Positions 51,184 to 62,999 of a DNA stretch of 64,000 nt are shown piece by piece. The position numbers and the translations under genes are program-made. Origin of the DNA: Algoriphagus terrigena DSM 22685. GTDB taxonomy: Bacteria; Bacteroidota; Bacteroidia; Cytophagales; Cyclobacteriaceae. The stretch's first letter is position 1. Every line of letters starts with the position of its first letter. The stretch spans positions 1-64,000 of the forward strand of contig NZ_AUBW01000017.1 of NCBI RefSeq assembly GCF_000429445.1, written 5' to 3'. The notes under the pieces were generated by a model. It was not told where the DNA came from. It ran no database searches and saw nothing but the letters and a program-made list of their open reading frames with translations.

Positions 51184-51469
51184 CGAACAGAAGCGCCATT
51201 GGTCTTCAATGACTTATGAATTTGAATCCAATGGATGACCTGTATCGAATTTTCACTTAAAGACCTACAGCAAAGCTTTGGGAAATTAATCGATGCAGTT
51301 TTTTGACGCACTGTTCAAACCGTGTATTGGCTTTGTCGTCTATCGATTTGCTAAACCAGTTAACCAACTAATTTTTATATGAAATCAAGCATGTCGCCAA
51401 CGACTCACACTGGGATGATTAGTGGCCATGCGAGATTCCATGTGGCAACTAAAAACAAGTGATAAACAC
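51184..51469. other. Intergenic region before the amylase, containing repeat copy A
   Basis: About 290 bases. The first 195 show no gene or clear structure; the last 94 (51379-51472) are the dispersed repeat shared with the prephenate dehydrogenase leader. Confidence 0.5.
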
Positions 51470-56413: not shown

Positions 56414-56444
56414 TTTGTTTTTAAACAATCAGCTTCTATTTTTG
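56414..56444 (+). promoter_or_regulatory. Promoter of the aromatic amino acid operon
   Basis: TTTG (56414-56417), exactly 19 bases, then TATTTTTG (56437-56444), a perfect TTTG-N19-TAnnTTTG match. The leader peptide ATG is 4 bases after the -7 box, so the transcript would begin at or beside it. Confidence 0.75.
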
Positions 56445-56448
56445 TGGC

Positions 56449-56544
56449 ATGTTACTTACAGCAGCGATCTATTTTACCTTCTTTTACTTTTACTTTCGAA
56501 GCCAAAATCGAATCGGAGCTGTGTATTGCCTAGCCAAAAACTAA
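56449..56544 (+). CDS. Phe/Tyr-rich leader peptide of the aromatic operon
   Basis: A 31-residue frame, ATG 56449 to TAA 56542-56544. Residues 8-16 read YFTFFYFYF: five Phe and three Tyr in nine codons, with no Trp. It follows a perfect promoter by 4 bases and precedes, by 16 bases, a terminator hairpin ahead of the DAHP synthase gene. This is the layout of attenuation leaders such as PheL: with scarce charged tRNA-Phe or tRNA-Tyr the ribosome stalls at codons 8-16 (56470-56496). The operon makes only Phe and Tyr, which fits the codon choice. The peptide itself is not expected to have another function. It is too short for usual gene calling. Confidence 0.75.
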   Translation: MLLTAAIYFTFFYFYFRSQNRIGAVYCLAKN

Positions 56545-56593
56545 AAGAAAATAAACACACAAAAAGCCCGGTTCGAAAGAGTCGGGCTTTTTT
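56495..56593 (+). promoter_or_regulatory. Attenuator: mutually exclusive antiterminator and terminator
   Basis: Segment 1 TTCGA (56495-56499, end of the Phe/Tyr codons), segment 2 TCGAATCGG (56508-56516), segment 3 GCCCGGTTCGA (56566-56576) and segment 4 CGGGC (56583-56587). Pairs 1:2 (5 bp), 2:3 (9 bp including one G-U) and 3:4 are exclusive. 3:4 with flanking A/T is the terminator. A stalled ribosome would cover segment 1 and free segment 2 to pair with 3, allowing read-through. Confidence 0.65.
56561..56593 (+). terminator. Intrinsic terminator of the attenuator
   Basis: AAAAAGCCCG (56561-56570) and CGGGCTTTTTT (56583-56593) form a 10-bp stem with a 12-base loop and a six-T run, 20 bases before the DAHP synthase ATG and on the same strand as the operon. 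Confidence 0.85.
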
Positions 56594-56613
56594 CATTTCA
56601 AACGTTCAGAACT

Positions 56614-57711
56614 ATGAAACCGCACAAACAAATCAAAGATTGGGGAATGGGATTGACCACCCCGCTGATCATCGCAGGACCTTGCTCAGCCGAAACTCCG
56701 GAACAGATCGAACAGATCTGTAAAGAAATGAAGGAAGAAAACATGATCCCTCAGGTGTTCAGGGCTGGAATCTGGAAACCAAGAACCAGACCGGGATCTT
56801 TCGAAGGTGTCGGTGAAGAAGGTCTGAAGTGGATGGAAATCGTCCGTCACAACCTCAATATCCCAATCACGGTGGAAGTGGGAAATGCTTCTCACGTAGA
56901 GCTGGCGCTGAAGCACAAGATAGACGTGCTTTGGATCGGTGCCCGCACCACTGTTAACCCTTTCGCAGTACAGGAAATTGCCGAAGCGCTTCGCGGCGTG
57001 GACATTCCCGTCATGGTAAAAAACCCAATGAACCCGGATCTGGAGCTTTGGATGGGAGCTTTGGAAAGAATGTACGCGGTAGGCATCGACAAACTGGCGG
57101 CTATCCACCGGGGCTTCTCTGATGCGTATGACAAGAGATTCAGAAACAAGCCAAATTGGTCTATGCCGATTCACCTAAAGCGTGAGTGGACCGGAATGGA
57201 AGTCATCAATGACCCTTCGCACATCGTAGGACGGAGAGATGGACTGCTTGAAGTGGCTCAGAGCGCCATGAACTTCGGACTGGATGGTCTGATGATCGAG
57301 ACGCACCACGATCCGGACAAAGCCTGGTCTGATGCCAAGCAGCAAGTGACTCCAGCCAGACTGAAAGAAATGATCAGCTCTATCGACTTCAAAGAGTCTC
57401 TCGAAGCGATGAAGCCAGACGAGAAGCTTCAGGATCTCCGCAGAGCGGTGGATCACCTGGACGACCAGTTGCTGGACATTCTTCAGGAAAGATTCGCAGT
57501 GATCGATCAGATTGGCGCGCACAAGCGTGAGCACCATTTGTCGGTATTTCAGTCTGATCGCTGGAAAGACGTGATGGAAAGCCGCACCCAAAAGGGAGTT
57601 GCTAAGCACCTCAGCGAGAAGTTTATGAAGGAGTTACTTTATTCTATTCATGAAGAATCCGTAAAACGCCAAGAGAAACAACTTCGAGAAGGAGAAGCTG
57701 TCAAGAAATAA
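56614..57711 (+). CDS. Bifunctional DAHP synthase / chorismate mutase (type II AroQ)
   Basis: A 365-residue fusion. The N-terminal DAHP synthase (KDPG-aldolase-like type I-beta) covers about residues 1-265: IIAGPCSAETPEQIEQIC near 19-36, FRAGIWKPRTRPGSFEG near 49-65, LWIGARTTVNPFAVQEIAEAL near 109-129, VKNPMNPD near 138, DPSHIVGRRDGLLEVAQSAMNFGLDGLMIETHHDPDKAWSDAKQQ near 205-249. The C-terminal AroQ chorismate mutase covers about 275-355, with LRRAVDHLDDQLLDILQERFAVIDQIGAHKRE. It makes DAHP from erythrose-4-phosphate and PEP, and chorismate to prephenate; the fused mutase is often the Phe/Tyr sensor in this fold. First gene of the operon, controlled by the attenuator. Confidence 0.95.
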   Translation: MKPHKQIKDWGMGLTTPLIIAGPCSAETPEQIEQICKEMKEENMIPQVFRAGIWKPRTRPGSFEGVGEEGLKWMEIVRHNLNIPITVEVGNASHVELALKHKIDVLWIGARTTVNPFAVQEIAEALRGVDIPVMVKNPMNPDLELWMGALERMYAVGIDKLAAIHRGFSDAYDKRFRNKPNWSMPIHLKREWTGMEVINDPSHIVGRRDGLLEVAQSAMNFGLDGLMIETHHDPDKAWSDAKQQVTPARLKEMISSIDFKESLEAMKPDEKLQDLRRAVDHLDDQLLDILQERFAVIDQIGAHKREHHLSVFQSDRWKDVMESRTQKGVAKHLSEKFMKELLYSIHEESVKRQEKQLREGEAVKK

Positions 57712-57792: not shown

Positions 57793-58836
57793 TTGGATCC
57801 TGTCATTTTCGCCTCAGAAGTCAGGCATGCGCTTAGCGGCGTCTTAGCCGATCTTTCTTTTTCCAGGTTGGTAGTCCTGACCGACTCCAACACCCAGTCC
57901 AAATGTCTCCCGCTGATCTCCTCCGTCTTACCACAGGACACAATTTATATCAGTGTCTCCGCCGGAGAGATTCATAAAAATCTCCAAACCTGCGCCGAAA
58001 TCTGGAGTCAAATGACCAAAGCTGCGCTGGATCGGAAAGCGTTGATGCTCAACCTCGGCGGTGGCGTAATCACCGACATGGGGGGCTTCTGCGCGAGCTT
58101 ATACAAAAGAGGCATCCGCTTCGTCAACATGCCGACGACCTTGCTTTCTCAGGTCGATGCCAGCGTGGGCGGCAAGCTAGGCGTGGATTTTGAGGGTTTG
58201 AAAAACCACCTCGGTGTATTCAATGAACCCGAGACAGTCATCGTCGCGCAGGAATTTCTCGCAACCTTACCCAAAGCCGAACTGCGATCAGGCTATGCCG
58301 AAATCCTGAAGCATGGATTGATCCGCGACAGTAGCTATTTTTCGAAGCTGAATGCGGAAAACTGGGAGAATCAGGATTGGGAGAGTTTGATTCATCATTC
58401 TGTCGGGATCAAAAAAGCCGTCGTCGAAGCCGATCCCAAGGAAGCTGGCCTTCGCAAGATTCTCAACTTTGGCCATACGATCGGACACGCGTTTGAATCC
58501 CACTTTCTCGATACTTCCAATCATCTGCTCCACGGCGAAGCCATCGCCTTGGGAATGATCTGCGAAGGATTTCTGTCCTTTCAGAAGGTCGGTTTTAGCT
58601 ATCAGGAATTGGATCAATTGACGAAAATGATGCTTCAGATCTACGGGAAAGTTGACTTTTCGGTAGACGAGCTTGATCCGATACTTGATCTTTGTCTGCA
58701 GGACAAGAAAAACGAAGGCAGCACTTTGATGTTTTCGCTGCTTACTTCCATCGGCGACTGCACCTACAATATCCCGGTCAACCGCGAGGAAATCCGCGAA
58801 GCAATCATCCACTATCACAATCTTAAAACGGCCTGA
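57793..58836 (+). CDS. aroB: 3-dehydroquinate synthase
   Basis: A 347-residue NAD-dependent synthase. Motifs: LVVLTDSNTQSKCLPLI near 24-40, the GGGVITDMGGFCASLYKRGIRFVNMPTTLLSQVDASVGGKLGVDF region near 88-132 (NAD and Zn binding), RSGYAEILKHGLIRD near 161-175, and the His pair in LNFGHTIGHAFESH near 226-239 and LLHGEAIALGM near 245-255. It converts DAHP to 3-dehydroquinate. The only suitable start is TTG 57793, as no ATG or GTG lies close. The product follows the operon logic: DAHP synthase first, AroB second. Confidence 0.93.
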   Translation: MDPVIFASEVRHALSGVLADLSFSRLVVLTDSNTQSKCLPLISSVLPQDTIYISVSAGEIHKNLQTCAEIWSQMTKAALDRKALMLNLGGGVITDMGGFCASLYKRGIRFVNMPTTLLSQVDASVGGKLGVDFEGLKNHLGVFNEPETVIVAQEFLATLPKAELRSGYAEILKHGLIRDSSYFSKLNAENWENQDWESLIHHSVGIKKAVVEADPKEAGLRKILNFGHTIGHAFESHFLDTSNHLLHGEAIALGMICEGFLSFQKVGFSYQELDQLTKMMLQIYGKVDFSVDELDPILDLCLQDKKNEGSTLMFSLLTSIGDCTYNIPVNREEIREAIIHYHNLKTA

Positions 58837-58854
58837 GCCTTGACTACTCACACC

Positions 58855-60087
58855 ATGACTTTACTTCGCCTAAGCCAAAAAAGCGATTTCACCCCTACCC
58901 GAATACCTCTTCCCTCTTCCAAGAGCGAGTCAAACCGCGCCTTGGTGATCGATGCATTGACATCCGGGGAGAACAAACTCACCAATCTGGCAGAAGCCCG
59001 CGATACGCAAACCATGATCCGATTGCTCAGCAGCAATCCTGCCGTGTTTGATGTCTTAGATGCTGGCACGACGATGCGCTTTTTGACGGCATTTGCCACG
59101 GTGAAAAACGAGAAAAAAGTCATGACCGGCACGGCCCGCATGTGCGAGCGTCCGATCGGAGTTCTGGTCGATGCACTCCGCGCGATCGGTGGCGACATCC
59201 ACTACCTGAACAAGGAAGGCTATCCGCCGCTGGCGATCCACGGCCTTCCAGAGCAAACTTCTAACACGGTGAAAATCCGGGGCGACGTCTCCAGCCAGTA
59301 CATCTCCGCGATGCTGATGATTGCACCGTTGCTGCCACAGGGACTGGAAATCGAATTGGAAGGCAAGGTCGGCAGCCGTACATACATCCAAATGACCCTT
59401 GAGCTCATGGCTCAGTTTGGGATCAAATACACTTGGGAAAAAAACAAAATCAAGGTGGCTAACCAAGCCTATCAGCCGACTACTTTTGCGGTGGAAAGCG
59501 ATTGGTCGGGAGCGAGCTACTGGTTTAGCCTATTGGCCTGTGCGGATTCAGGTGCTCTATTTTTGGAAGGATTGAAGGAAAACAGCCTTCAAGGTGACTC
59601 CGCCATCGTGGAGATCATGAGCCATTTGGGCATCAAAAGCACCTTCGAAAACGGCGGGATTTTACTAAAAAAACAGCCGGTAAAAGGCCTGAAAAACTGG
59701 GACTTCACCCATTGTCCGGACTTGGCTCAAACCGTCGCCGTCACCTGCGCGATACTCGGCCAAGCCGCAATCTTCACCGGCCTGGAAAGCTTGAAGATCA
59801 AAGAAACCGACCGAATCTATGCCTTACAGCAAGAATTAGCGAAGTTCAATGCGGAACTCCGAGAGATCGAACCGGAAGTGTTCCAGGTAATCCCCTCGGT
59901 GACCATGCCTCGCAAAGTACAGATTCACACCTACGAAGATCACCGGATGGCAATGGCCTTCATGCCCTTGCTGACCAAGACGGAAGTGATCATCGAGGAC
60001 CCCGAGGTAGTCAACAAATCCTACCCGAGTTTTTGGAAGCATACCGAACTGTTGGGGATTTCCACTGAAAAACTGGCTGAGCTATGA
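58855..60087 (+). CDS. aroA: 3-phosphoshikimate 1-carboxyvinyltransferase (EPSP synthase)
   Basis: A 410-residue enzyme; ATG 58855 is preferred to a TTG at 58840. Signatures: PLPSSKSESNRALVIDAL near 18-35, LDAGTTMRFLTAFATVKNEK near 62-81, GTARMCERPIGVLVDALRAIGGDIHYLNKEGYPPLAIHG near 86-124, VRGDVSSQYISAMLMIAPLL near 136-156 and EDHRMAMAFMPLLTKTEVIIEDPEVVNKSYPSFW near 360-394. It condenses shikimate-3-phosphate with PEP. The AGTT pocket differs from the NAGTA loop of E. coli, as is usual in Bacteroidota. The other shikimate genes (aroE, aroK, aroC) are not in the window. It is 18 bases after aroB and overlaps pheA by 4 bases. Confidence 0.94.
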   Translation: MTLLRLSQKSDFTPTRIPLPSSKSESNRALVIDALTSGENKLTNLAEARDTQTMIRLLSSNPAVFDVLDAGTTMRFLTAFATVKNEKKVMTGTARMCERPIGVLVDALRAIGGDIHYLNKEGYPPLAIHGLPEQTSNTVKIRGDVSSQYISAMLMIAPLLPQGLEIELEGKVGSRTYIQMTLELMAQFGIKYTWEKNKIKVANQAYQPTTFAVESDWSGASYWFSLLACADSGALFLEGLKENSLQGDSAIVEIMSHLGIKSTFENGGILLKKQPVKGLKNWDFTHCPDLAQTVAVTCAILGQAAIFTGLESLKIKETDRIYALQQELAKFNAELREIEPEVFQVIPSVTMPRKVQIHTYEDHRMAMAFMPLLTKTEVIIEDPEVVNKSYPSFWKHTELLGISTEKLAEL

Positions 60088-60905
60088 GTTTGAAAATAGC
60101 CATTCAAGGCGTCCCGGGCTCTTTTCACCACAAAGTAGCACTGGAAAATTTTGGCGCAGACTGCGAGATCATCCCGTTCAATACCTTTGAAGCACTTGCC
60201 AAATTCGTCTCACACGGGGAAGCGGATTTTGGTGTGATGGCCATCGAAAACTCCATCGCGGGAGCCATCTTGCCCAATTACGACCTGATCGACCGCTATG
60301 AGCTGTTTATCCGTGACGAATATTACCTGCCGATTGCACATCAACTGATGGCACTACCCGGGCAATCAATCGACGACATCCGGGAGGTGCGCTCGCATCC
60401 GATGGCGATTTTGCAGTGCAAGGCTTTTCTTTCCAAGTATCCCCATATCCAGCAATTTGACGATGTGGATACAGCGGCAGTCGCTCAGCGAATCGCTGAT
60501 AAAAAACTGCTCGGAGTGGCCGGAATCGCCAGCGAAATCGCCGCAGACATCTACGGACTGGAGATCTTGACCCGCGATATCCAAACGGTGAAGGAGAACT
60601 TTACCCGGTTTATCATCCTGCAAAAAGAAAAGATCGAAACCGAGATCCTGCCAAATAAGGCCTCCTTCAAGATCACGATCCACAACGAGGCCGGAGGATT
60701 GGCAAAGCTGCTGACCTATCTGGCAGAAAAGCAACTCAACCTGAGCAAAATCCAGTCGATTCCCGTGATCGAAAAACCTTGGGAATACGCATTTTTTATC
60801 GACGCGGAATTTGCAGATTACAACCAGTATCGGGAAGCCATGGCCTTGGCAACCCGGGAATTTGGGGACTTGAAAATTTTTGGTGAATACAGAAGCAGAA
60901 AATAA
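60084..60905 (+). CDS. pheA: Prephenate dehydratase with ACT domain
   Basis: A 273-residue protein overlapping aroA by 4 bases (ATGA). The catalytic domain (residues about 1-185) has IQGVPGSFHHKVALENFG near 6-23, FGVMAIENSIAGAILPNYDLI near 51-71, QCKAFLSKYPHI near 113, GVAGIASEIAADIYGLEIL near 145-163 and ENFTRFIIL near 175-183. The ACT regulatory domain (about 195-270) has ITIHNEAGGLAKLLTYLAEKQLNLSKIQSIPV near 200-231. It converts prephenate to phenylpyruvate and is probably inhibited by Phe. The typical ESRP motif after the ACT strand is replaced by SKIQSIP. Confidence 0.92.
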   Translation: MSLKIAIQGVPGSFHHKVALENFGADCEIIPFNTFEALAKFVSHGEADFGVMAIENSIAGAILPNYDLIDRYELFIRDEYYLPIAHQLMALPGQSIDDIREVRSHPMAILQCKAFLSKYPHIQQFDDVDTAAVAQRIADKKLLGVAGIASEIAADIYGLEILTRDIQTVKENFTRFIILQKEKIETEILPNKASFKITIHNEAGGLAKLLTYLAEKQLNLSKIQSIPVIEKPWEYAFFIDAEFADYNQYREAMALATREFGDLKIFGEYRSRK

Positions 60906-62050
60906 TGAAGGGATTCGCCGATAGAATCAATACAGTCGAAGAGTACTACTTTTCAGCCAAACTCAGAGAAGTCAATCAGTTGATTGCGGATGGCAAACCC
61001 GTCATCAATCTTGGCATTGGATCACCTGACAGGGCACCGGACCGCTCTGTGATCGATGCGCTGAAGAGCGCCGTCGAGCATCCACAGGCGCACGGCTATC
61101 AGAGTTATCAGGGTATTCCTGAGCTGAGAGCCGCCATGGCGGAGCTCTACTCCAGAGAGTACGGTGTCATGCTCAATCCCGCCAAGGAAATCCTCCCGCT
61201 TTTGGGATCCAAAGAAGGGATCATGCACATCAGCATGGCATTTCTGAACCCAGGCGACCAGGTGTTGATACCCAATCCCGGCTATCCGACTTATACTTCA
61301 GTCACCAGATTAGCTCAGGGAGAGCCGATCTTCTACGAACTGGACTTGGAAAGAAAAGGAAGACCGAAGCTGGAAGCGTTGGAGCAACTTGACTTGAGCA
61401 AAGTCAAGCTGATGTGGATCAACTACCCCCACATGCCGACCGGAGCGCCCGGATCCAAAGAAATCCTGAGCGAGCTCGTCGCTTTCGCACAAAAGCACCA
61501 AATCGTCCTGGTCAATGACAATCCGTACAGCCACATCCTGAACCCTGAGCCGCTCAGCATCCTGGAGATTCCGGGAGGAAACGAGGTGGCTTTGGAACTC
61601 AACTCCCTCAGCAAGACATTCAACATGCCAGGCTGGCGGGTTGGGATGCTTTGCGGACGGGCGGACTGGGTCGAGGCCGTCTTGAAAGTCAAATCCAACA
61701 TGGATTCCGGGATGTTTCTCGGCCTTCAAAAAGGAGCCATCGCGGCCCTGGGTTTGGGAAAAAGCTGGTTTGCTGATCAAAACGAAAACTACACCAACCG
61801 CAGAAAACTGATCTGGAAACTGGCGGAAAAGCTGGGTCTCAGCTATGACACTAAAGGCTCGGGGCTATTTGTGTGGTGCAGACTTCCCGATGGAAAATCC
61901 GCCGAGGAACTGGTCGATTGGATGCTATACGAAAAAAATATTTTTATCACTCCGGGGAAAATCTTTGGCTCGCAGGGAGAAAACTACGTCAGGTTTTCAC
62001 TTTGCATGCCCGAATTCAAAATCCTCGAAGCGATCAACCGCATCAAATAA
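60905..62050 (+). CDS. Class I/II PLP-dependent aminotransferase, probably aromatic
   Basis: A 381-residue aminotransferase. Start and previous stop share one base (TAATG). PLP-binding signatures: INLGIGSPDRAPDRSVIDALK near 33-53, NPGYPTYTSVTRL near 122-134, the Asp in LVNDNPYSHIL near 202-212, and the Schiff-base Lys in ELNSLSKTFNMPGWRVGML near 231-249. Because it lies between prephenate dehydratase and prephenate dehydrogenase, the substrate is most likely phenylpyruvate/4-hydroxyphenylpyruvate or prephenate, converting them to Phe, Tyr or arogenate. Fold-I class alone would also fit aspartate or LL-DAP aminotransferases. Confidence 0.88.
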   Translation: MKGFADRINTVEEYYFSAKLREVNQLIADGKPVINLGIGSPDRAPDRSVIDALKSAVEHPQAHGYQSYQGIPELRAAMAELYSREYGVMLNPAKEILPLLGSKEGIMHISMAFLNPGDQVLIPNPGYPTYTSVTRLAQGEPIFYELDLERKGRPKLEALEQLDLSKVKLMWINYPHMPTGAPGSKEILSELVAFAQKHQIVLVNDNPYSHILNPEPLSILEIPGGNEVALELNSLSKTFNMPGWRVGMLCGRADWVEAVLKVKSNMDSGMFLGLQKGAIAALGLGKSWFADQNENYTNRRKLIWKLAEKLGLSYDTKGSGLFVWCRLPDGKSAEELVDWMLYEKNIFITPGKIFGSQGENYVRFSLCMPEFKILEAINRIK

Positions 62051-62059
62051 AACCCTGTC

Positions 62060-62153
62060 ATGAAATCGAGCATATAGACGGCCAAACACACTGGAGTAAT
62101 TATCAACCTTGCGAGATTCCATGTGGCCGATAAAAGTAAACTATATACACATG
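62060..62153 (+). repeat. Dispersed 94-nt leader repeat, copy B (ends on the tyrA start codon)
   Basis: Aligns without gaps to 51379-51472 with 68 of 94 identical bases, including the exact block TGCGAGATTCCATGTGGC (62110-62127), 41 bases before the ATG in both copies. It fills the whole gap between the aminotransferase stop and the dehydrogenase start. The in-frame frame that in copy A reads to a 27-codon peptide is broken by a TAG after five codons here. Confidence 0.75.
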
Positions 62154-62999
62154 AAAAAAATACACATCATCGGACTTGGCCTTTTGGGAGGCTCATTTGG
62201 CCTGGGTGCCAGACAGAAGTTCCCTGAATTGATCATCACTGGAGCAGATGCCAACCCCCAAAACCTTGCCGATGCCTTGACCTTGGGCATCATTACCGAG
62301 GCAAAAGAAACCCCGGATGCCGATACCGATCTGGTAATCCTGGCCACGCCGGCGGATACGCTGGGCGATTTGGCTCTGAAAACATTGGCGGAAGTCAAAC
62401 AAAACACCTTGGTTTTCGATGTGGGCTCGACCAAAGGCAAGCTTTGCGCTTTACTGGCTAAGCATCCGAAGCGGAATCAATATTTGGCTGCGCACCCAAT
62501 CGCCGGCACGGAATACTCCGGACCAAAAGCTGCCTCAGTAGACCTCTTGGACAAAAAAGTCCTGATCATCTGTGAACTGGAAAAAACCGACTTGCACCTG
62601 AAGGAAAAGGCTTATCGGCTTTTTGAAGCGTTGAATCTGAAACTCAGATTCATGGATCCTGAAGAGCACGATCTTCACCTGGCTTTTGTCTCGCACCTAT
62701 CCCATATTTCCTCCTTTATGCTCGGGGAGACGGTCCTTCAGAAGATGGCTGACGAAAAAAACATCTTTGACATGGCAGGTTCCGGCTTTGCCTCCACCGT
62801 ACGACTGGCCAAATCCAGCCCGGCGATGTGGGCGCCGATCTTCACCGAAAACAAAGAAAACATCCTCAGCGCGATGGACGGCTACATCGCCAACCTAACC
62901 GCATTTCGCAACAAAATCGCAGCCGAAGACCACAAGGGACTTTTCGACGAAATGTCAGAGATCAACAAGATTCGGGAGATCTTGGACATGGGGAAATAG
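62151..62999 (+). CDS. tyrA: Prephenate dehydrogenase
   Basis: A 282-residue NAD(P)-dependent dehydrogenase. N-terminal Rossmann motif IIGLGLLGGSFGLGA near 5-19, then GSTKGKLCALLAKHPKRNQYLAAHPIAGTEYSGPKAASVDLL (residues about 92-132), where HPIAGTE carries the substrate site, and HLAFVSHLSHISSFMLGE near 180-198 with the catalytic His. It oxidatively decarboxylates prephenate to 4-hydroxyphenylpyruvate for tyrosine. ATG 62151 is chosen; the longer open frame from 62109 lies in the leader repeat. Last gene of the operon, followed by a terminator. Confidence 0.93.
   Translation: MKKIHIIGLGLLGGSFGLGARQKFPELIITGADANPQNLADALTLGIITEAKETPDADTDLVILATPADTLGDLALKTLAEVKQNTLVFDVGSTKGKLCALLAKHPKRNQYLAAHPIAGTEYSGPKAASVDLLDKKVLIICELEKTDLHLKEKAYRLFEALNLKLRFMDPEEHDLHLAFVSHLSHISSFMLGETVLQKMADEKNIFDMAGSGFASTVRLAKSSPAMWAPIFTENKENILSAMDGYIANLTAFRNKIAAEDHKGLFDEMSEINKIREILDMGK

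Follow-up and report, generated by a model that had tools for sequence, protein, structure and literature searches.

The locus and its genes

The window analyzed here is a 64,000-nt stretch of the Algoriphagus terrigena DSM 22685 genome (contig NZ_AUBW01000017.1) and carries an operon for aromatic amino acid synthesis that begins with a gene for DAHP synthase-chorismate mutase (DAHPS-CM) and ends with tyrA (Table 1). As assigned by Pfam, the genes of this operon cover steps of the common pathway as well as both the Phe and Tyr branches, and we infer from gene order and spacing that DAHPS-CM through tyrA form a single transcript. Upstream of DAHPS-CM lie a promoter, a short open reading frame (ORF) rich in Phe and Tyr codons, and a predicted intrinsic terminator, with 20 nt between the U-run of the terminator and the DAHPS-CM start. 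An earlier note on this DNA had read the arrangement as a ribosome-mediated attenuator. Leader positions given below as nt are counted from 56449 as nt 1.

Table 1. Features of the leader and the operon that follows it (window coordinates)
Feature	Position	Strand	Basis
Promoter of the Bacteroidota sigma-A type: -33 TTTG (56414-56417), 19 nt, -7 box TAttTTTG (56437-56444)	56414..56444	+	Sequence, relatives
Predicted transcription start, A of the leader AUG	56449	+	-7 box position, 4-nt gap
Leader ORF, 31 codons plus stop (56542-56544), MLLTAAIYFTFFYFYFRSQNRIGAVYCLAKN	56449..56544	+	Sequence, conservation
Probable segment 1 (revised), 5' arm (nt 9-27); would pair with segment 2 with aromatic codons in the loop	56457..56475	+	Fold, duplex energies
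Control codons 8-16 (Tyr Phe Thr Phe Phe Tyr Phe Tyr Phe)	56470..56496	+	Sequence, alignment
Segment 1 as originally named; weak 5-bp hairpin with 56508-56512	56495..56499	+	Energy, alignment
Segment 2, antiterminator strand; 56510-56516 invariant in alignment, 56517 a bulged A	56508..56523	+	Alignment, pairing
Segment 3, 5' arm of terminator, partner of 2 or 4	56565..56576	+	Pairing, alignment
Segment 4 and U-run, predicted intrinsic terminator	56579..56593	+	Fold, conservation
DAHPS-CM, first structural gene	56614..57711	+	Pfam PF00793, PF01817
Remaining operon: aroB, aroA, pheA (prephenate dehydratase), aminotransferase, tyrA (start 62151)	57793..62999	+	Pfam

The leader ORF is conserved within one clade

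The leader frame of 31 codons, in which eight of the nine residues at codons 8 to 16 are aromatic, was confirmed as the earlier note had described it. A genome search combined with a contig scan returned 109 usable DAHPS-CM loci, with many genomes present twice, which reduced to 84 distinct upstream regions; L056, an odd joint match, was excluded from the usable loci, and identical sequences were also dropped. An aromatic-rich ATG frame was present in 83 of the 84 distinct upstream regions of these relatives, and the sole exception (L051) cannot be judged, since only 195 nt of upstream sequence remain before the contig end and these include a repeat described in the last section. The same repeat pushes the leader out to about -255 in L029 and L088. 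These three loci are excluded from alignment A1 (L029 and L088 for the inserted repeat, L051 for the contig end), and L134, for which the wrong gene start had been picked, from alignment A3.

The aromatic run was retained with few changes across 110 aligned sequences. The run holds no Trp in the window, as had been claimed, but this did not extend to all relatives, given that codon 8 encodes Trp in 6 of 81 aligned sequences. Part of the peptide outside the run is also conserved (R-I-G), its C terminus is variable, with the stop falling between codon 27 and codon 32, and it matched no family in NCBIfam or Pfam. A profile built from 22 leaders matched 55 of 196 sampled genomes of the family at an E value of ≤0.01, 50 of them, in 20 genera, at ≤1e-11, and all 30 loci fetched from this search adjoin a DAHPS-CM gene 78 to 100% identical to that of the window. 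Among 395 genomes of the phylum, the profile gave five strong matches, all in the window's family, and only weak matches outside it. No operon gene was found near the 25 weak-match loci that were fetched with 1.5 kb on each side, and we rejected these 25 as chance. Because strong matches are confined to the family and the loci fetched there stand before related DAHPS-CM genes, these searches place this leader in one clade and with a single DAHPS-CM lineage.

A second DAHPS-CM gene, 42 to 50% identical, lies directly upstream of the copy that follows the leader in 13 of the 30 family loci (L129, L130, L132, L133, and others), and such an upstream copy is absent among the three DAHPS-CM matches of the A. 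terrigena genome itself. It is possible that the paired copies are two isoenzymes under different regulation.

Promoter spacing and a predicted leaderless start

The coordinates proposed for the promoter held, and the spacing of its boxes is kept in relatives. A -7 box (TAnnTTT[G/A]) was found by a filter 4 to 5 nt before the leader ATG in 81 of the 84 distinct upstream regions, and of the 3 that failed the filter, L029 and L088 show a 4-nt gap on inspection. The gap is likewise 4 nt in the window, and in all 50 family loci, whose genomes are partly shared with the set of 84, it is either 4 nt (45 loci) or 5 nt (5 loci). Given that the sigma-A box of Flavobacterium psychrophilum is located at -12 to -5 in the portions of the transcriptome report that we drew on (PMC9723704), a 4-nt gap places position +1 at the first base of the leader start codon. 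The Phe/Tyr leader transcript is predicted to start on this AUG, which would make the leader ORF leaderless. Leaderless mRNAs account for 5.5% in F. psychrophilum according to the same portions (PMC9723704), and 5' untranslated regions (UTRs) shorter than 10 nt for about 3.7% in Bacteroides thetaiotaomicron, also from a source available in part.

It is also conceivable that the leader works by ribosome-mediated attenuation with a short 5' UTR, where transcription would start a few bases upstream of the AUG. The Algoriphagus trp and his leaders, whose -7 boxes lie 9 to 11 nt and 7 to 9 nt from the ATG, respectively, and are predicted by the same rule to have 5' UTRs of about 5 to 7 nt and 3 to 5 nt, are consistent with such a start, as are the leaders before pheA elsewhere in the phylum (described below), in which a consensus -7 box was found in 18 of 50 and lies 7 to 49 nt from the ATG. 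However, the near-constant gap at the 50 family loci argues against a start upstream of the AUG, and we consider it unlikely for this leader. Given that the box stands 7 to 49 nt from the ATG in the pheA leaders, the leaderless form may be restricted to the window's clade.

A putative antiterminator and a putative terminator share segment 3

The 9-bp core of the pairing between segments 2 and 3 (56508-56516 with 56568-56576, one G-U pair) was confirmed and was found to extend past the bulged A via GCU:AGC to 12 bp, joining nt 60-72 with nt 117-128. The terminator hairpin (56565-56588, followed by U6 at 56588-56593) lies between the leader ORF and DAHPS-CM, and since both structures use segment 3, the antiterminator (2:3) and the terminator (3:4) are mutually exclusive. 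The region from 56445 to 56613 folds at -40.8 kcal/mol (z = -3.2), and 1 of 200 dinucleotide shuffles folded as well. A loose scan for terminators found 11 terminator-like sites in 7.3 kb compared to 9.4 expected by chance, so the hairpin alone is not evidence, whereas its conservation is. In 110 aligned sequences, 99.2% of the cells of 3:4 are paired, a value reached by 0 of 500 shuffles, which supports the terminator proposed earlier.

Compensatory changes in relatives had been proposed as a check, and changes on both sides of a pair occur in some of the pairings. Two pairs of 3:4 changed on both sides (33 of 500 shuffles reached this), and two pairs changed on both sides in the 1:2 hairpin originally named (see below). 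For 2:3, 97.8% of the cells are paired compared to 7.8 to 58.6% when the strands are slid, but no pair changed on both sides and 262 of 500 shuffles of the 110 aligned sequences paired as well, which is explained by 2:3 being nearly invariant. Leader nt 62-68 are invariant in the 110 aligned sequences even though they are coding. Arg21 is encoded by CGA in 108 of 110 sequences and Ile22 by ATC in 110 of 110, while the shares of these two codons in nine window genes are 11% of Arg codons for CGA and 71% of Ile codons for ATC. The third base of the Gly23 codon varies (102 A, 6 T, 2 C), and this is the base that is bulged from the 2:3 helix. These patterns indicate that selection acts at the RNA level within leader codons 21 to 23. 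It is speculation that RNA polymerase pauses at a conserved TATTG (nt 76-80).

We considered that there could be no attenuation at this locus, with the leader ORF being an ordinary conserved gene for a small protein that ends in a terminator of its own and with the operon transcribed from an internal promoter downstream of it. While the partial conservation of the peptide beyond the aromatic run and the hairpin with U-run that closes the gene would both suit such a gene, the variable C terminus would not, and neither would the conservation of synonymous sites in segment 2 that are complementary to the terminator arm. Moreover, only the 20 nt noted above separate the U-run from DAHPS-CM, and no second -7 box was seen there by eye. 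An ordinary small protein gene is thus very improbable in our estimate.

The alternative 2:3 and 3:4 pairings themselves would suit any sensor, including a trans-acting RNA-binding protein or a metabolite-binding RNA such as a riboswitch or T-box in place of the ribosome. However, a search of the whole window with Rfam 15 found no family at gathering score, T-box and riboswitch families included, and the matches were weak only, the best by E value being BTnc231 at 25.6 of 80.4 bits. Translation best explains why the aromatic run is kept in the 110 aligned sequences and why aromatic-rich frames precede pheA elsewhere, and we regard a sensor other than the ribosome as the least probable of the explanations weighed here, slightly behind the small protein gene.

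A 5' arm as the probable segment 1

The earlier note had named 56495-56499 as segment 1, pairing with 56508-56512. This 5-bp hairpin exists, but at -3.2 kcal/mol it is weak, and although 91.9% of its cells are paired in the alignment, one of its five positions is unpaired in 41 of 108 sequences. Its two pairs that changed on both sides (reached by 11 of 500 shuffles) both occur in a single sequence, L089. When the RNA was folded with its end at nt 90, segment 2 paired mainly with nt 12-19, at a mean probability of about 0.4 to 0.7 per pair, and the 5-bp hairpin had a mean pairing probability of about 0.2.

The duplex between this 5' arm and segment 2 averaged -12.2 kcal/mol over 80 distinct combinations. 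When arms were exchanged between relatives, the mean rose to -11.3 kcal/mol, with 0 of 5,000 permutations as low as the sequences' own arms in a comparison that is uncorrected for descent; with a shuffled 5' arm the mean was -6.6 kcal/mol, and 0 of 100 shuffles matched the own arm. On a gene tree of 96 sequences, parsimony left most single-base changes in 1:2 unmatched by the partner. The 5' arm can slide by three bases (GCAGC at nt 10-14 or 13-17), and column-wise counts therefore miss some of the pairing. Based on the folds and duplex energies, the 5' arm (about nt 9-27) is probably segment 1 rather than 56495-56499. We retained the 5-bp hairpin as a minor structure that is probably not the main competitor for segment 2. 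The 5' arm is complementary to segment 2 in relatives, as release of segment 3 by 1:2 would need, yet 2:3 is the stronger pairing at equilibrium.

A model for the switch

The leader frame, its aromatic run, and the 2:3 and 3:4 pairings are all kept in relatives, which supports the attenuator reading of the earlier note. We conclude from these comparisons that a combined Phe/Tyr operon is very probably controlled here by ribosome-mediated transcription attenuation, acting on a transcript predicted to be leaderless. Dual sensing of Phe and Tyr would fit an operon whose genes make both amino acids. We infer the following order of initiation, stalling, coupling, and response to the two amino acids. 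RNA polymerase would start at or within about 1 base of the leader AUG, and a ribosome would initiate on this 5'-terminal AUG. With Phe- or Tyr-tRNA in short supply, the ribosome would stall on codons 8 to 16, where its footprint would cover or separate the 5' arm (segment 1). Segment 2 (nt 60-72), lying immediately downstream of the ribosome, would then be available to segment 3, and their pairing would keep the terminator from forming and let the operon be read through. If both amino acids are ample, the ribosome would pass over segment 2 to the stop codon; behind it, segment 1 would re-pair with segment 2 and segment 3 with segment 4, and transcription would end before DAHP synthase.

We modeled the stalled ribosome by masking nt 31-59, with the A site on codon 16. 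With the RNA made to nt 131, before segment 4, 2:3 formed at a mean probability of 0.96 (0.95 in the window), and in the full leader with no ribosome 3:4 formed at 0.99. With the ribosome at the stop codon, again before segment 4, 2:3 still won at equilibrium (mean, 0.92), and once segment 4 was made, 3:4 won despite a stalled ribosome (mean, 0.94). These last two equilibrium folds speak against the simple picture, and the switch would therefore have to be kinetic, depending on which of the two helices is the first to form. A ribosome resting at the stop codon, about 20 nt beyond segment 2, would leave segment 2 uncovered. This differs from trpL, where the ribosome resting at the stop codon covers segment 2.

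Phe/Tyr leaders precede pheA in other Bacteroidota

At least seven Phe or Tyr codons within 10 codons were found upstream of the prephenate dehydratase (PDT) gene in 51 of 110 other Bacteroidota genomes, compared to 1 of 110 on the reverse strand and 0, 0, and 0 in three rounds of shuffling. The count divides into all 20 genomes examined from family f13 and 31 of 90 genomes from the phylum sample, a proportion that does not estimate frequency because the hand-picking of genomes favored the window's own class. The 90 genomes comprise 30 returned loci and 60 hand-picked ones out of 138 phylum-sample genomes with a PDT match, with 48 omitted; in f13, 20 of the 21 genomes with a match were examined, and G652 was omitted for a broken match. 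These pheA leaders span ten families (f1, f13, f22, f23, f25, f26, f35, f38, f47, and f53), and two genomes of the window's own family (G074 and G122) have a pheA leader, while the window's leader was not found in them. The 59 genomes in which no pheA leader was found may include some with pheA inside an operon.

Like the window's leader, the pheA leaders have an aromatic run and mostly a terminator and a 2:3-like duplex: by a simple rule, 49 of the 50 that start with ATG have a terminator and spacer, and the duplex was better than 95% of shuffles in 44 of 49 tested. They differ in that they cannot be aligned with the window's peptide by profile, in the greater distance of the -7 box, and in being sometimes in tandem. 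Two Phe/Tyr-rich frames stand in tandem about 170 to 340 nt before pheA in four f13 loci (L332, L334, L335, and L336).

At L126, the corresponding position in G047, pheA is followed in turn by genes for an aminotransferase, tyrA, and DAHPS-CM. When 60 genomes of the family of G047 were searched with its second leader as a single sequence, the query itself was the only match at a strong E value, and three others had E values of 0.03 to 0.04. By eye, some pheA leaders of that family resemble one another, which means that this search was insensitive. We had considered that the leader of the window's clade is unusually conserved compared to other leaders; this rested on the insensitive G047 search and was dropped.

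trp, his, and ilv leaders in Algoriphagus

A frame with WW or WWW precedes trpE at 15 of 15 Algoriphagus loci (in the range L248 to L264) and at 1 of 3 loci from other families. Upstream of hisG, an HHFHH frame that has an ATG is present at 12 of 13 Algoriphagus loci (L187 to L200) and at 0 of 3 from other families. Among 24 ilvD loci scanned, a candidate branched-chain leader frame was found at 3 Algoriphagus loci (L205, L211, and L218) and a further ilvD leader frame, far upstream, at L207 from another family, and the ilv leader of A. terrigena itself (L213) was read by eye; none of these ilvD leaders was found by a stricter filter that required a nearby -7 box. A hairpin and U-run can be read by eye after the trp and ilv leaders of A. 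terrigena, and no clear terminator was seen by eye for the his leader. No Thr/Ile-rich frame was found at 20 Homoserine_dh loci, a negative that carries no weight because the 1.5-kb flank ends within the gene where this is long and fused. Together with the pheA leaders of ten families, the trp, his, and ilv leaders of Algoriphagus suggest that amino acid synthesis in the phylum is commonly controlled by attenuation.

Relation to known attenuators

The window's leader shares with the PheL/TrpL-type attenuators of Proteobacteria an ORF with codons for the end product, alternative antiterminator and terminator structures, and an operon that makes the end product. It differs in that its control codons lie in the loop of the likely 1:2 pairing, it is predicted to be leaderless, it would sense Phe together with Tyr, and it stands before DAHPS-CM. 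By sequence it is not a member of the Rfam Phe_leader family (RF01859, pheL), scoring 20.9 bits against a gathering threshold of 55 (E value of 0.25). In a comparative study from 2004, Vitreschak and colleagues reportedly listed a few candidates in Bacteroidetes/Chlorobi.

The authors of a 2010 study knew of no demonstrated case outside Proteobacteria and Actinobacteria before their own in Firmicutes, as stated in the portions of the article available (PMC2965389). The F. psychrophilum transcriptome report describes strong clues for leader-peptide attenuation at amino acid operons; phylum and proposed mechanism are as in the window, and the excerpted text mentions neither the window's clade nor leaderless leader frames (PMC9723704). 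Leader-peptide-like frames are mentioned for B. thetaiotaomicron, likewise in excerpted text (PMC7366714). Among the matches listed from the open-licence PMC literature, there was no experimental proof of an amino acid attenuator in Bacteroidota, in line with the earlier note, and no mention of this one. This kind of attenuator is known, and its presence in the phylum was suspected before. As far as our searches of the open-licence PMC literature go, what is new is the wide occurrence of Phe/Tyr leaders, the predicted leaderless form, and a 5' arm as the probable segment 1.

The attenuated trpL/rnTrpL RNA of Sinorhizobium meliloti starts on the leader AUG, as is predicted here (PMC7298713, consulted in excerpts). 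That system is alphaproteobacterial and concerns Trp, it is likened to the window's leader by description, and the trans-acting roles are those of rnTrpL and hypothetical for the leader studied here. In the 20 genera with strong matches, the window's leader can be aligned base by base, a degree of conservation that may exceed what attenuation by itself would require. By analogy with rnTrpL and peTrpL, a leaderless attenuator could have a terminated RNA of about 145 nt and a 31-amino-acid peptide with a second job in trans, a reading that we hold to be improbable. If that reading were true and the pheA leaders of other families act as proposed, Bacteroidota would couple transcription and translation tightly enough for attenuation.

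Ribosome-mediated attenuation requires a ribosome close behind RNA polymerase, and Bacteroidota ribosomes largely do without Shine-Dalgarno pairing. The leaderless version would offer a simple mechanism for starting translation, and these leaders could serve as ready-made reporters of ribosome-polymerase coupling in Bacteroidota. Genome annotation, too, would gain small genes and terminators from these leaders.

A repeat near the operon

A repeat of about 90 nt that contains GCGAGATTCCATGTG occurs in the window at 51379-51469 and 62060-62150, as well as at L029, L051, L088, and L405 to L412, and had 42 matches at an E value of ≤0.01 in the A. terrigena genome. It mostly begins with ATGAAATC and is immediately followed by an ATG, usually as part of ATGAAA. 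Of 8 loci read, 6 have a frame of at least 188 amino acids that opens at the second ATG. In L029 and L088, a copy of the repeat lies between the Phe/Tyr attenuator and DAHPS-CM.
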